Below the pieces are notes generated by a model. That model ran no database searches and had not been told where the DNA came from. It was given only the letters and a program-made list of their open reading frames with translations. A stretch of 38,351 nt of DNA, taken from contig JAPFQF010000047.1 of NCBI GenBank assembly GCA_029255365.1, positions 1 to 38,351 on the forward strand, written 5' to 3'. The translations under genes and the position numbers were made by a program. This document shows, piece after piece, positions 1-26,966 of this stretch; the first letter of the stretch is position 1, and each line of letters opens with the position of its first letter. The DNA is from Candidatus Nitrosopumilus sp. Its GTDB lineage: Archaea; Thermoproteota; Nitrososphaeria; Nitrososphaerales; Nitrosopumilaceae.

Positions 1-1537
1 TTCCAGATTTGACTACAACAAGACCTCCCTGATTCTCAACGAGGTGGTTAGAAGCAACGGCCATATCAGAATCATTTGAACCGATTACGATCATGTCATT
101 TTCATGGAAACTCCATGTCGAGGCAAAGGCGCCGATGTCTGCACCAAAATTTTCAAGAAATCCTATAGAATGCTTTCTAGTTCCGTGAATTCTGTCAAAT
201 GCTGCAACTTTCCAGATGTCAGAGTCTAATGAGGCAGAGACATGACCGTCTTTGGAACGGAGTTCTGCAGAGCCTATCTTAGTAATAATTTCAGTTTGCA
301 TATAGATGGTGTTTGCAACGACGTCTTTCTTTTTTGATTTTATAACAAAGTCGTTTTCAGAGAATTTTTTCAATTTTACAGTTTTTTTAATCCAAGGCGC
401 AATCATTTTTTTCTTGATTGACGCAACTATTTGTCCATTGGACACTACGAGTTTGCCCCCGACAAAGACTTTGTTTGGTTTGAATGATTTTAAGTCATCA
501 AAAATTAAAATATCTGCCAATTTTCCAGGAGCAATGCCGCCAAGATCTTTTCCCATGTTATAGTAGTCAAAATTATTCTTTGATGCCATAGTAACTGCAT
601 CTATTGGCTTTAGGCCAAGTTTGATTGATTCTCTTACACAGTGATCTATATGGCCGAATTTAGACATGTCAAGCGGATCAAGACCGTCAGAACAAAACAT
701 CAGTCGATTAAGATATGTCCCGTGAGACAAAACATGTGGAATTATTTCCTTCAAATCGCGTCTAATGGAGCCCTCTCTGATCATTATCCACATTCCAAGA
801 CGTAATCTTTCTAAGACCTGATCAAAATTAATCGGCTCATGGCAAGATAGGATTCCAGATGAGACATACGCGTTAAGTTTTCTCTCACTTGCGCCGGCAG
901 TATGCCCGTTGATTATGCAATCACATTCCAACATGGACGAAAGTGATTTCATTGTTTTTGGTTCACGTGAAGTGACTTTGGTCCAAGAAAAAACTTCGCC
1001 TAATCCCAGTACATGTGGATGCTTTACTGCAGATTTTTCTTGTGATAGTGATAATGATTTGCTGCCGCTAAATTTTGCGTCCACTGGGAGACCGCCTGGA
1101 ACTACTTGAAAAATTCGGATTGGAAGATCCTCACCGAGTTTTAAAAATTCTTGAAATCCGCGATATCCCGCCACACTTACAACATCGATAGGATCAGAAA
1201 ACAGAGATGTTACACCGCAAAGCAGAGCCTTTTTCGCAAATTCAGACGGTAAAACAAATTGATCAATATGTAAATGCGGATCTGCAAAACCAGGACTGAC
1301 ATATTTTCCACCTGCATCGATTACAATGGTTTTTGGACCAACAGTATGTGTGGCATCTGGGCCAACATACGCAATTCTGTCATTGACAATGGCAATCTGA
1401 ATTTTTGGAATTATTTCCCGAGTATAGACAGACAGTAAATTGCAATTTTTTAAAATCAGATCGGCTTTCTTATCACCCATTGCTACAGAATTTAGAGACA
1501 AGATCGAATTTGCTAGGCTCGAAGTCACTTCCTTCAA
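1..1537 (-). CDS. ade: Adenine deaminase, partial (3' end beyond window)
   Basis: Hydrolytic deamination of adenine to hypoxanthine in purine salvage. The translated minus strand has the amidohydrolase barrel with DPHLHID (metal site; AdeC proteins normally have HIES), the GLGEV segment, the NGHTAGASERKLNAYVSSG block, IREGSIRRDL, FCSDGLDP and APGKLADI, in the AdeC order. The C-terminus runs off the left edge. I chose the TTG at 1537 because it adds a leader helix ahead of GDKKADLILKN, as AdeC proteins have; the first ATG is at 1480. The gene is divergent from the ribosomal protein pair. Family assignment is firm; the substrate rests on family. Confidence 0.88.
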   Translation of the reverse strand, partial: MKEVTSSLANSILSLNSVAMGDKKADLILKNCNLLSVYTREIIPKIQIAIVNDRIAYVGPDATHTVGPKTIVIDAGGKYVSPGFADPHLHIDQFVLPSEFAKKALLCGVTSLFSDPIDVVSVAGYRGFQEFLKLGEDLPIRIFQVVPGGLPVDAKFSGSKSLSLSQEKSAVKHPHVLGLGEVFSWTKVTSREPKTMKSLSSMLECDCIINGHTAGASERKLNAYVSSGILSCHEPINFDQVLERLRLGMWIMIREGSIRRDLKEIIPHVLSHGTYLNRLMFCSDGLDPLDMSKFGHIDHCVRESIKLGLKPIDAVTMASKNNFDYYNMGKDLGGIAPGKLADILIFDDLKSFKPNKVFVGGKLVVSNGQIVASIKKKMIAPWIKKTVKLKKFSENDFVIKSKKKDVVANTIYMQTEIITKIGSAELRSKDGHVSASLDSDIWKVAAFDRIHGTRKHSIGFLENFGADIGAFASTWSFHENDMIVIGSNDSDMAVASNHLVENQGGLVVVKSG

Positions 1538-22643: not shown

Positions 22644-23300
22644 TTACACTTTTTGATAATTCAAAACAATATGATTTTTGAGCCTCTTAACAGATTTGAG
22701 TTGAAGATTGGTTGATTTAGAAATACTATCAAATCCACTACCTTGAACAAATGATATTGAATCATTTCCTCCAATTATGAATGGGGAGAGAGTGATGATC
22801 AATTCGTCAAAAAGATTTTGTTTGATAAATTCCCAATTTACTGTTCCGCCACCTTCGACCAATATTGTTCTGATTTTTCTCTCTGAAAGTTTTTTTAGTA
22901 AAGACCTGATGTTCACATAGTTTTCTCCAGTAATAATAACTTCAACTGGAAATTTATTTAATTTTTGTAGATTAGATTTTGTAATTTTTTTTGATACAGC
23001 TATTATGGTCGGAACTTTAGCGGATGTTTGTAAAATTTTTGATTTTGTAGAGATATCGCCTTTAGAATCCAATATTATTCTAATAGGATTTTTCCCTTTA
23101 GCATAACGTACAGTTAACAAAGGATCGTCACGCATCAGGGTATTTTTTCCAATAATTATCGCATCTACTTTTGCTCTTAGTTCATGTAGTCTACGCAAAT
23201 CTTCCTTGGAAGAGAGTTTTGAATTTCCTGTTCTAGTAGCAATTTTGCCATCAATAGATATCGCTGCACTTAGAATAACATGGGGGTTATGTTTTTCCAT
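22644..23300 (-). CDS. arfC: 2,5-diamino-6-ribosylamino-pyrimidinone 5'-phosphate reductase
   Basis: Reduces the ribosyl side chain to ribityl in archaeal/fungal-order riboflavin synthesis. RibD C-terminal (DHFR-like) fold: HVILSAAISIDGKIATRTGNS, the DAIIIGKNTLMRDDPLLTVR block, RIILDSKGDISTKSKIL and ILVEGGGTVNWEFI with the Gly-rich NADPH loop. At 218 residues there is no RibD deaminase domain, so the deamination step needs another enzyme. It overlaps the amidohydrolase gene by 14 bp and ends the riboflavin operon. Confidence 0.93.
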   Translation of the reverse strand: MEKHNPHVILSAAISIDGKIATRTGNSKLSSKEDLRRLHELRAKVDAIIIGKNTLMRDDPLLTVRYAKGKNPIRIILDSKGDISTKSKILQTSAKVPTIIAVSKKITKSNLQKLNKFPVEVIITGENYVNIRSLLKKLSERKIRTILVEGGGTVNWEFIKQNLFDELIITLSPFIIGGNDSISFVQGSGFDSISKSTNLQLKSVKRLKNHIVLNYQKV

Positions 23301-24477
23301 GTACTATTTTTCCTCCAATCATTACAGCCTTTATTGCAGATTCAGACGCTCTATGAACAATTGATGCATATGGGTCATGCATCGGTTCTAAATCTAATGC
23401 ATGTTTATCTAAAAACAGACAGTCAGCAATTCTTCCAGGTTCAATACTTCCAATATTTTTATTCAAAATTTTTCCGCCGTTCACTGTTGCCATTTTAAGA
23501 ATTTCTTTCGCATCAATTCTTTTTTTGTGTAACCCCATAGTTACTTTCCAAACAAAATCCATTTCCCTGAACATGTCAGGAGAGTTTATCATCACATTGT
23601 CTGTGCCTAAAGCTAGGGTACAGCCAGATTTTTGCATCAAAACAATGTCAGGAATCCCTTCAGCAAGGGATGAATTAGCTCTGGGACAAATTACAATACC
23701 TCTTGTCTTTTTAGATGCCATTTGAAGATCAGACTTTGAAGCATATGTCATATGAACTAAAAAATCAGGTTTTAAAATTAAAGCCCTGGTTGTTTCAGAT
23801 TGTCCAGTGACTTTTTTTGATTGGTCAGTGCTTTGTTTAGTTTCAGCAGAATGAATTGCCCTAATCTTCGATGTTTTTGAATAATAATTCAAGACGGAAT
23901 TACTATTTTCATTTGCACCGCTAACACCTATGCCATCACATTTTTTGAGTAATGCACGTAATTCGGCAGTTCTTATGCTTGGAAATGATGAATTTTTTTT
24001 AATTTCTACGGCATTCTGATAAAATTCCATTCGACCTAAAATAATTGAACGCAAAGGAACATCATTTAGTATTTTTTTTAATAAAATGACTCCATCCAAT
24101 CCCCCTTCTCTGAAATCCACAAAGGTGGTGATTCCTTTTCTAAGCATTGAATGGCAGGTATTTTTCATAAAATTTCCTAAAATCTCATTTGATGTGTTTT
24201 TTAGAATTTTTGATTTTGCTCCAAAGACAGGGTGAATTTTTTCATCAACTGTATTGTTTAAAGAAATATCTTTCCCAACAGAATCTCCAATATGGGTATG
24301 TGCATTTATGAATCCCGGTATCATCAAGAGCCCTTCGCAATCTAAAGACTCTTCTTTTGGAATTGGTTTGATTTTTGATTGAATTTTTTTAAATTTGTTA
24401 TTTTGAATTCGTATGTCTGTGCTTGAAACAAAATCTAAATCTTGGCCAGTTAAAACACTGATATTTTTAATTAACAT
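23287..24477 (-). CDS. Amidohydrolase-superfamily protein in the riboflavin operon (candidate pyrimidine deaminase or deformylase)
   Basis: Metal-dependent hydrolase of the ATZ/TRZ-chlorohydrolase group. The metal site is complete: H60-x-H62 (NAHTH), H209, H242 and D293 (GTDN), with E212 three residues after H209, the HxxE pattern of guanine, cytosine and S-adenosylhomocysteine deaminases. The C-terminus has the usual GSIEPGRIADCLFLD strand. It overlaps GTP cyclohydrolase III by 7 bp and the reductase by 14 bp, so it is locked into the riboflavin operon. By chemistry it could deaminate the 2-amino group of the diaminopyrimidine or remove the formyl group left by ArfA. An unrelated deaminase role is possible. 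Confidence 0.85.
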   Translation of the reverse strand: MLIKNISVLTGQDLDFVSSTDIRIQNNKFKKIQSKIKPIPKEESLDCEGLLMIPGFINAHTHIGDSVGKDISLNNTVDEKIHPVFGAKSKILKNTSNEILGNFMKNTCHSMLRKGITTFVDFREGGLDGVILLKKILNDVPLRSIILGRMEFYQNAVEIKKNSSFPSIRTAELRALLKKCDGIGVSGANENSNSVLNYYSKTSKIRAIHSAETKQSTDQSKKVTGQSETTRALILKPDFLVHMTYASKSDLQMASKKTRGIVICPRANSSLAEGIPDIVLMQKSGCTLALGTDNVMINSPDMFREMDFVWKVTMGLHKKRIDAKEILKMATVNGGKILNKNIGSIEPGRIADCLFLDKHALDLEPMHDPYASIVHRASESAIKAVMIGGKIVHGKT

Positions 24478-25223
24478 GATAATTCATAAACTTCAGGTTT
24501 TTCTTTTCCTGAATCTCGAATTTCGCGTATAGTATCAAGGGATTTTGTTGCTAATTTCACTGCCTCTCTACCAGTATTTGCATTACCAATTCCACAATTC
24601 AGTAAAATACCATCGTCATTTTTTACAATATCGATAAAATCTTGGACTGATTGTTTTGCTTCATCGTTTGATACTATCATAAAGTTATCACCGCCCATAA
24701 AAAATGCAAGAGAATTTTTTTCTAGAAAGTATTTAGACATTTTTGAATATAATCCAAATATCACCGATGTGATTTCATAAGGGGAATTAGTTTTTCTTTT
24801 TGATGTAAGGTTATCTACATCCAAATGCATTATCGAGACTTTTGAATCAAAACCATCATAAACAAAACCAAAAATATTATGTTCTGTGCTCAGGATAATT
24901 TTATTTTTCTTTCCTTCGTATGCGTTTAGATTTGCTTTAAAAGGTGAATTTCCATAACCGATAGATATCGTTAATCCGACTTCAAATAATTTTTTAAGGA
25001 TTTTTTGGATTTGAATATGATCCTCCAAACCCAAACCATTTGAGACTACAAAAAATTCATCCGCCCTATTAAGAAAAACTATGCAGTTTTTTTCAGAAAA
25101 TAGCTTTTGTACTTCTTTGTAAATAGATGCTTGAAGCATTTGGAGTTCGTGTTCCCTATCACTGCCAAGAGTCAATGTCCAAGGGCCATATTCTGTAATT
25201 TTTAAGATGCTGAGTTGAATCAT
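24471..25223 (-). CDS. arfA: GTP cyclohydrolase III (IIa), ArfA
   Basis: Opens GTP to the 5-formylamino-pyrimidine (FAPy) nucleotide, the first step of archaeal riboflavin and F420 synthesis. N-terminus SILKITEYGPWTLTLGSDREHELQ, then VFLNRADEFFVVSNG, SIGYGNSPFKANLNA, MHLDVDNLT and FFMGGDNFMIVSND, the last resembling the nucleotidyl-cyclase (GGDEF-like) fold of this family. Length 250 residues, normal. It overlaps ribH by 4 bp. Because ArfA leaves the formyl group on, the pathway needs a deformylase (ArfB), for which no canonical gene is in the cluster. Confidence 0.93.
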   Translation of the reverse strand: MIQLSILKITEYGPWTLTLGSDREHELQMLQASIYKEVQKLFSEKNCIVFLNRADEFFVVSNGLGLEDHIQIQKILKKLFEVGLTISIGYGNSPFKANLNAYEGKKNKIILSTEHNIFGFVYDGFDSKVSIMHLDVDNLTSKRKTNSPYEITSVIFGLYSKMSKYFLEKNSLAFFMGGDNFMIVSNDEAKQSVQDFIDIVKNDDGILLNCGIGNANTGREAVKLATKSLDTIREIRDSGKEKPEVYELSC

Positions 25224-25636
25224 TTTTGAATCCTTTTTAATTCATCAGAAATTTTTACAACAGCTTCTACAGCACGCTCTGCAACAGGTCGAATTCTAGC
25301 ATAAGCATGTCTTTCCTGCATTCCAGGACCAGAAATCCCCAAAGAAACAGGTTTTTGATACTTTAATGATAAATTTGTAAGTGCTTGAACTGCTGCATGA
25401 GATATGACTTCATCGTGTTTTGTCTGTCCTTTGATGATAGCACCTAAAGTAACCACAGCATCTACATCTTTTTTCTGTAATAGTGAATCAACTATGATAG
25501 GCATATCATATGCTCCTGGAACCATGCAAATGTAAGATATTTTTAATTTCATCAGATCAGCTTTTTCTCTGGCAATAGCAAGCATCCTAGATGTCACGTC
25601 CTCATTGAATTCAGAAACGACTATTGCAATATTCAA
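25220..25636 (-). CDS. ribH: 6,7-dimethyl-8-ribityllumazine synthase
   Basis: Condenses the ribitylamino-uracil with dihydroxybutanone phosphate. Signature regions: AIVVSEFNEDVTSRM, MVPGAYDMPIIVDSLL, VVTLGAIIKGQTKHDEVISHA (substrate-binding HDxxx with catalytic His) and PVSLGISGPGMQERHAYAR. At 138 residues it is the usual archaeal size and probably forms pentamers or a capsid. It starts 2 bp after the ribB stop and overlaps arfA by 4 bp. Confidence 0.96.
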   Translation of the reverse strand: MNIAIVVSEFNEDVTSRMLAIAREKADLMKLKISYICMVPGAYDMPIIVDSLLQKKDVDAVVTLGAIIKGQTKHDEVISHAAVQALTNLSLKYQKPVSLGISGPGMQERHAYARIRPVAERAVEAVVKISDELKRIQK

Positions 25637-25638
25637 AA

Positions 25639-26304
25639 TTAGTTCACCTTGGCGTATTCTAAAAGATCTTTTCCGTCAACCAGCGGAATTCCATTTTCCT
25701 TTGCAAATTTTTCGGCCTTATCCACAGACAATGCAGCATAGGTTTCAGCATCCATCATTTCACATATTGCTGTCACAGGAGTCAAACCTGCAAGTTGTGC
25801 TAAATAAACAGACATTTCTGTATGTCCCTGTCGTGCCGCCAACAAACCTTTGGATGCAATCAATAAAGGGACATGTCCAGGAGTTTTAAATGAGGACGCA
25901 AATTTTTTCTGCTTGTTTTCAACATTGTAGATTTTTGCCATTTCATTAATTGTTAATGCTCTGTCTTTATCAGTAATTCCAGTATATGTTTGATAATGAT
26001 TTACGGACAAGGAGAATGTGGGGTGATCGCCATAAGGCGCTAATCCCATAATCATTTCTTTATTTGAGATGGAAGACTCGGCAAGGATTTCATGCATGTA
26101 TTGTAAATCAAGAGATGTCGCAAAATTATTTTCTATTGCAATGCATAATAACCCACCTGCATTCTGTCTCATTCTTGCAACATGTTCAGGTGTCACAAAT
26201 TCTGCAGCTACAACCATATCAATTTCGTTTTCTCTTCCAGCGGAATCAAACAGTAGGACAAATTCTCCACGTTTCAATGACTGTAATGCAGAATCAAGTG
26301 ACAT
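25639..26304 (-). CDS. ribB: 3,4-dihydroxy-2-butanone 4-phosphate synthase
   Basis: Converts ribulose 5-phosphate to the four-carbon precursor of lumazine. Motifs in order: GEFVLLFDSAGRENEIDMV (the family normally has DxEdREnE), MRQNAGGLLC, FSLSVNHYQTYTGITDKDRA, FKTPGHVPLLIASKGLLAARQGHTE (catalytic His) and AICEMMD. At 221 residues it is the monofunctional RibB without a cyclohydrolase II half. Its promoter (TATA at 26323-26334) and an adjacent 14-bp palindrome lie just upstream, so it likely heads the main riboflavin transcript. Confidence 0.96.
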   Translation of the reverse strand: MSLDSALQSLKRGEFVLLFDSAGRENEIDMVVAAEFVTPEHVARMRQNAGGLLCIAIENNFATSLDLQYMHEILAESSISNKEMIMGLAPYGDHPTFSLSVNHYQTYTGITDKDRALTINEMAKIYNVENKQKKFASSFKTPGHVPLLIASKGLLAARQGHTEMSVYLAQLAGLTPVTAICEMMDAETYAALSVDKAEKFAKENGIPLVDGKDLLEYAKVN

Positions 26305-26381: not shown

Positions 26382-26966
26382 TTACTTTAGAATGTATTTC
26401 CCAAGAATGTCAGTTTCAATGTTAACCTTATCGCCTATTTTTTTTGTATGGAAATTCGTCACATCAATAGTATGAGGAATCAGTGACACGTATGCAAGAG
26501 TGTTTTCGATGTCAACAACAGTTAAACTAATTCCGTCTATTGCAATGGAGCCTTTTTTCACTACAAATTTAGATAGTTTTTTTGGAATTTCGAACCAAAC
26601 TTGCACTTCCTTAGGTTTTTTTAGAATTTTTTTAATTATAGCGACTCCGTCTACATGACCTAAAACAAAATGCCCTTCAAGTCGATCACCTGCCCTTAAA
26701 CTGCGTTCGATATTTACAATTCCACCAACTTTTAAATTTCCAAGATCAGTTTTTTTTGTTGTTTCTTCAATCATTTCAAAAATACAAGAGGATTTGGAAA
26801 GTTTGGTTGCTGTAAGGCATACGCCATTTAGGGCAACGCTCTGTCCAATTTTCAATCCCTTTGCATGTTTTCCTAAATTCACAGTCATTTGAATATCACT
26901 TCTGTTTTTTGTGTTTTTAGAAATTTTCTCTACTTTTCCAACTCCTTCAACGATTCCTGTAAACAT
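26382..26966 (-). CDS. ribE: Riboflavin synthase, alpha-subunit (bacterial) type
   Basis: Dismutates two lumazine molecules to riboflavin. Two homologous lumazine-binding barrels: residues 1-90 starting MFTGIVEGVGKVEKI and containing LNGVCLTATKL, and residues 95-190 starting LEGHFVLGHVDGVAII with IDGISLTVVDI. At 194 residues it is the trimeric bacterial/eukaryotic enzyme rather than the unrelated RibC of methanogens. It lies upstream of ribB in the same direction but is separated by 77 bp with a new promoter. Confidence 0.95.
   Translation of the reverse strand: MFTGIVEGVGKVEKISKNTKNRSDIQMTVNLGKHAKGLKIGQSVALNGVCLTATKLSKSSCIFEMIEETTKKTDLGNLKVGGIVNIERSLRAGDRLEGHFVLGHVDGVAIIKKILKKPKEVQVWFEIPKKLSKFVVKKGSIAIDGISLTVVDIENTLAYVSLIPHTIDVTNFHTKKIGDKVNIETDILGKYILK

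Follow-up and report, generated by a model that had tools for sequence, protein, structure and literature searches.

An amidohydrolase embedded in the riboflavin operon of a Nitrosopumilus genome is very probably the archaeal pyrimidine deaminase of the riboflavin/F420 trunk

Known deaminations and the archaeal route

In bacteria, the deamination that leads to riboflavin is carried out by the N-terminal domain of RibD, which has a cytidine-deaminase fold and acts before the reduction step. In archaea, reduction precedes deamination (PMC3631187). The pathway also supplies 5-amino-6-ribitylaminouracil, the precursor common to riboflavin and F0 (PMC8498797). Deformylation of the ArfA product, which carries a formyl group, has been demonstrated for BrbF of Sinorhizobium, a member of the creatininase family (PMC9478397).

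For the deaminase of the archaeal riboflavin/F420 trunk, there appears to be no gene with biochemical proof, and the open-access papers searched yielded no assay of this step. The first-pass annotation of the locus described here held that the archaeal deaminase had long been unassigned. However, a computational prediction exists: according to PMC8305020, Rodionova et al. (2017) predicted HVO_2483 and MJ0699 for one of three gaps in riboflavin synthesis. The table in PMC8305020 gives a candidate for ArfB, assigns HVO_2483/MJ0699 to a step without a name and leaves a gap for the phosphatase; by elimination among these three, the unnamed step would be the deaminase.

Here we describe an amidohydrolase gene from the Nitrososphaeria (hereafter AH, used for this gene, its protein and its orthologs) that very probably encodes the 2,5-diamino-6-ribitylamino-4(3H)-pyrimidinone 5'-phosphate deaminase of the archaeal riboflavin/F420 trunk, as judged from its sequence and genomic setting. 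The 2017 candidates, as PMC8305020 presents them, seem to belong to the same family and step, since the family model matched by AH (NF005552) also has hits in M. jannaschii and H. volcanii; AH differs in coming from Nitrososphaeria and in being fully embedded in a riboflavin operon. The deaminase idea is therefore not new, but the discriminating evidence, the signature residues and the wider reach are. Together, the operon placement, the F0 linkage, the signature residues and a candidate partner deformylase sharpen the earlier prediction into one that can be tested in Thermoproteota and Asgard archaea alike.

The operon, the protein family and its active site

The window, by which we mean the whole analysed stretch of 38,351 nucleotides, belongs to a Candidatus Nitrosopumilus sp. 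genome assembly of 1.2 Mb that is 86% complete. Its minus strand carries a six-gene riboflavin operon in the order ribE-ribB-ribH-arfA-AH-arfC. The genes encode a bacterial-type riboflavin synthase (ribE, 26382..26966, TIGR00187), dihydroxybutanone phosphate synthase (ribB, 25639..26304, TIGR00506), lumazine synthase (ribH, 25220..25636, TIGR00114), GTP cyclohydrolase III (arfA, 24471..25223, PF05165), the 396-amino-acid ATZ/TRZ-type amidohydrolase with an ATG start (AH, 23287..24477) and an archaeal-type reductase (arfC, 22644..23300; TIGR01508 at 208.5 bits, cut-off 186.45). The overlap of AH with both neighbours, as originally described, amounts to 7 bp with arfA and 14 bp with arfC, and profile matches bear out the identities of these neighbours as a GCH_III protein and a RibD_C-only reductase. 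Also borne out are the lack of a RibD-type deaminase domain in the cluster, where ArfC matches the reductase half of RibD alone, and the lack of a recognisable ArfB. The bacterial type of riboflavin synthase is typical of the Nitrososphaeria operons, and an archaeal RibC at another operon position is present in several other lineages (e.g. L080:4275-4745). A second amidohydrolase in the window (2-1537, minus strand), which reads as adenine deaminase-like, adjoins genes that resemble those for cobalamin biosynthesis.

AH matches the NCBIfam equivalog model NF005552 (PRK07213, "chlorohydrolase") over its full length (residues 1-387) at 330.2 bits, above the cut-off of 294, and its scores against every other ATZ/TRZ family are far under the respective cut-offs. 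Its domain search returned amidohydrolase domains only, with no match to the cytidine-deaminase-fold domain of RibD (PF00383), and profile searches gave no match to the creatininase domain of the ArfB/creatininase family (PF02633). Its score against the guanine deaminase model TIGR02967 is 69 bits, below the cut-off of 375.4. The family model also matches controls from M. jannaschii, H. volcanii, S. acidocaldarius and M. acetivorans at E<=1e-20, with two of the four above the cut-off, and a homologue from Halobacterium falls below it at 245.7 bits. The name "chlorohydrolase" seems to have been carried over from another annotation, and a role in dechlorination finds no support here. AH belongs to this family by score and length and differs from its database name in the proposed role.

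The full ATZ/TRZ-type metal site and HxxE pair noted on first reading are intact, with H60, H62, H209, E212, H242 and D293 invariant in 40 and then in 54 homologues. We compared 54 orthologs with 19 paralogs, the latter being archaeal and plasmid-borne only. This catalytic set is common to both groups. The codons of the metal ligands H60 and H62 (NAHTH motif) lie at 24292..24300 on the minus strand, as do all those that follow, and both residues are conserved in 54/54 orthologs and 19/19 paralogs. Metal ligand H209 and proton shuttle E212, which form the HxxE pair (23842..23853), are kept in every ortholog, with H in 19/19 and E in 18/19 paralogs. The catalytic H242 (23752..23754) and the metal or catalytic D293 (within 23596..23601) are likewise present in 54/54 orthologs.

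Six further positions separate the orthologs (52-54 of 54) from the paralogs (0-2 of 19). D65 (24283..24285), K88 (24214..24216) and N294, whose codon directly follows that of D293 in the direction of reading, occur in 54/54 orthologs and in none of the 19 paralogs; E124 (24106..24108) occurs in 54/54 and 2/19. R266 (CPRxN motif, 23680..23682) and R376 (23350..23352) are each found in 52/54 orthologs and 0/19 paralogs. From their pattern of conservation, we propose that K88, R266 and R376 bind phosphate or a ring oxygen, with K88 and R376 as the candidate phosphate contacts.

An AlphaFold2 model of AH (pLDDT 94.5) gave Foldseek matches with E-values of 8.6e-27 to 4gbd_A and 9.0e-25 to 7ww2_A. 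Among solved structures, the closest in fold are adenosine/SAH deaminases, AtzA, the isocytosine deaminase Vcz and guanine deaminases. Superposition on Vcz (7ww2_B) yields TM-scores of 0.86/0.77. AH shares with Vcz (PDB 7ww2, 8is4) and the guanine deaminases the fold, the type of metal site and the target group, a 2-amino-4-pyrimidinone ring. However, identity in structural alignments is only ~16-20%, the proposed AH substrate would be a phosphorylated ribitylamino-pyrimidine, and K88, R266 and R376 mark out the AH family in the comparison with archaeal and plasmid paralogs. Because the proposed substrate would be a substituted isocytosine, Vcz may be regarded as a close chemical analogue.

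The presence of adenosine and SAH deaminases among the closest characterised folds raises the alternative that AH deaminates a nucleoside (S-adenosylhomocysteine, methylthioadenosine or 5'-deoxyadenosine) and merely sits in the operon, and the home genome yielded no other SAH-deaminase-like paralog. The archaeal 5'-deoxyadenosine/SAH deaminases are indeed in the same superfamily subgroup and have the same catalytic residues as AH. However, in the tree a branch with SH-aLRT support of 96 separates the AH orthologs from these paralogs, which lack D65, K88, N294, R266 and R376 and nearly all lack E124. AH scores 109.8 bits against the 5'-deoxyadenosine deaminase model (cut-off 522) and 50.8 bits against the MTA/SAH deaminase model (cut-off 779). 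Furthermore, several AH carriers (G109, G227, G081, G244) also keep a separate SAH-type paralog, and the distribution of AH tracks that of RibH, as detailed below. We therefore consider a nucleoside substrate highly unlikely.

Linkage and co-occurrence across archaeal genomes

To the extent that AH serves riboflavin and F0 synthesis, its linkage to these genes would be expected to recur in relatives, and such linkage is kept. Profiles built from the window's proteins served to annotate forty loci that span the families (numbered with the prefix f). The order ribE-ribB-ribH-arfA-AH-arfC is retained in the Nitrososphaeria-type families f1, f2 and f3. Other families show ribB-x-ribH-arfA-AH (f21), arfC-arfA-ribB-ribC-ribH-AH (f18), arfA then AH (f34), ribH then AH (f12, G224; f24, G260, G265 and G275), cofH then AH (f50), adjacent AH and arfC (f35, f30, f53, f16, f37, f17) or divergent AH and ribB (f5), and one f14 member (L066) has arfC 2.9 kb downstream of AH. 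Of the 18 families that carry AH, 17 have it linked to riboflavin or F0 genes, the sole exception being f9, on a contig of 3.7 kb. This linkage is far beyond chance, and the shuffled orders cannot be explained by a single frozen operon. The gene is unlinked in some carriers, including several f14 and f24 members and haloarchaeal plasmid copies.

A scan of the collection with a 7-row alignment as query gave 80 named loci, with ArfA in the flanks of 72 and ArfC in those of 74. Three loci are without both nearby, two of which have cofG or cofH instead. Linkage extends to the Asgard archaea, where Jordarchaeum has ribB-ribC-ribH-arfA-AH-arfC and Helarchaeota ribB-ribC-ribH-AH-arfC. In the Helarchaeota genome (G302, locus L109), neither GTP cyclohydrolase III nor II was detected despite this operon, which may reflect a novel first enzyme or an incomplete assembly. 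An argument against a deformylase role for AH from GTP cyclohydrolase II in this genome was dropped, as that enzyme was not found either.

Two observations on individual members are recorded here. The haloarchaeal members L159 and L160 are plasmid-borne (Halorientalis, Halobacterium PHS3) and have no riboflavin genes beside them. In a groundwater euryarchaeal MAG (G300, L090/L157), the AH gene is split by one in-frame TGA, which may represent sequencing error, decay or recoding.

Co-occurrence was assessed in 300 genomes of the same phylum by using a profile built from 27 AH orthologs, mostly operon-anchored. The profile found AH in 114/300 genomes at 205-456 bits, and paralogs reached at most 173 bits, giving two separated classes. 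Family f12 had first seemed devoid of an ortholog (~50-64 bits with NF005552), but the operon-linked model found AH there at 326-368 bits. RibH is present in 110 of the 114 AH genomes (Fisher odds ratio 1251) and an ArfC-type reductase in 111 (odds ratio 368), with the Fisher p-values overstated because the genomes are related. Two families (f5 and f16) each include members with AH, RibH and ArfC together and others with none of the three.

By score, four RibH genomes are without AH. In one of these (G074), a divergent homologue retains D65, K88, E124 and N294 and groups with its f18 relatives, leaving three genomes without any recognised AH. An ArfC-like gene occurs without AH in 16 genomes, all lacking RibH, and several of these genes have weak scores and may serve another role. 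AH tracks RibH more closely than ArfC does.

The F0 genes place AH more precisely. AH is linked to cofG and/or cofH in 13 distinct genomes (cofG/cofH confirmed by NCBIfam models in L037). Four AH carriers are without RibH: two have AH-arfC-cofG-cofH (G019, G109), a third has cofH adjoining AH (G234), and in the fourth (G103) no cof genes were seen in the 8 kb examined. The presence of cofG/cofH beside AH in three of these four carriers suggests that AH acts before the riboflavin/F0 branch. This fits a position of AH upstream of 5-amino-6-ribitylaminouracil, in the trunk from which both riboflavin and F420 derive.

As expected if AH takes the place of the RibD deaminase domain, no full bacterial-type RibD passes the cut-off in any of the 300 genomes of the AH-bearing phylum. 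The RibD N-terminal deaminase performs the kind of riboflavin step proposed for AH, with an unrelated fold. A different possibility is that a stand-alone protein of the cytidine-deaminase fold carries out the deamination and that AH has another role in the pathway, such as the repair of side products. The home genome does encode a dCMP-deaminase-like protein (L002; 100 bits to ComEB, under the cut-off). However, its gene has no riboflavin neighbour within the 3.4 kb examined, matches of the RibD N-terminal type are few and weak among the 300 genomes, and the close agreement of AH with RibH in distribution is not what a repair enzyme would lead one to expect. These considerations make a repair role very improbable, although the dCMP-deaminase-like gene leaves a second deaminase formally conceivable.

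A candidate deformylase and the proposed route

The first-pass annotation had offered AH as a candidate for the missing deaminase or deformylase. Removal of the formyl group left by ArfA would make AH an ArfB-equivalent, and this reading draws on the cluster lacking ArfB and on the curated ArfB model NF033501 passing its cut-off in 0/300 genomes of the phylum. The HxxE and HxH elements of AH are, however, of the deaminase type, and a separate creatininase-family gene accompanies AH in other lineages. It comes straight after arfC, which it overlaps or abuts, in five AH operons (L055:4954-5715, L079:7764-8546, L080:7861-8616, L083:9491-10237 and L077), and it adjoins arfA in L191 (8066-8743), L192 and L210, an arrangement seen in family f12. 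The creatininase superfamily includes BrbF, with its demonstrated activity on the ArfA product (PMC9478397).

The home genome has such a homologue at L001:1462-2220 (contig C25, 19839-20597; PF02633, 174.6 bits), which is 27-37% identical to most operonic copies and 25-26% identical to the f18 copies, and a creatininase match is listed in every Nitrososphaeria genome sampled. Given that canonical ArfB passes in none of the 300 genomes, the creatininase-family gene is likely the ArfB-equivalent. The deformylase half of the original proposal thus loses ground and is very unlikely to be correct, and the deaminase half is strongly favoured by linkage, by near-perfect co-occurrence with RibH and ArfC, by the deaminase-type site and by the lack of a full RibD. 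Against the curated ArfB model, the home creatininase reaches 39.9 bits, under the cut-off of 180. A PurU-like formyltetrahydrofolate deformylase (L001:2190-3059) overlaps the home creatininase reading frame, a possible formyl-group theme.

With ArfA, the creatininase-family protein, ArfC, RibB and RibH accounted for, deamination and dephosphorylation remain, and phosphatase activity is not expected from AH. In the proposed route, ArfA would open GTP, the creatininase-family deformylase would then take off the formyl group and ArfC would reduce the ribose. AH would next replace the 2-amino group of 2,5-diamino-6-ribitylamino-4(3H)-pyrimidinone 5'-phosphate with oxygen, in chemistry of the isocytosine or guanine deaminase type. 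A metal-bound hydroxide held by H60, H62, H209 and D293 would serve this reaction, with E212 and H242 as putative acid-base groups. The product, once dephosphorylated, would pass to RibH for riboflavin and to CofG/CofH for F0.

Assignment of AH as the deaminase would put right a misannotation that is common among marine ammonia oxidisers, whose proteins of this family are named "chlorohydrolase" in databases, and would mean that two unrelated folds serve a step needed by every flavin-making cell. We lean slightly towards the broader view that an amidohydrolase-fold deaminase and a creatininase-family deformylase constitute the ancestral archaeal route to the shared flavin/deazaflavin precursor. 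If so, archaea (Thermoproteota, Asgard, Halobacteria and methanogens) and bacteria would each have invented the deamination on their own, using unrelated folds, and only the phosphatase would still be missing from the archaeal trunk. In a single instance, a HAD-family hydrolase gene (L050:5969-6577) overlaps AH in an AH-cofH cluster, and its product is a candidate for the missing trunk phosphatase (EC 3.1.3.104).
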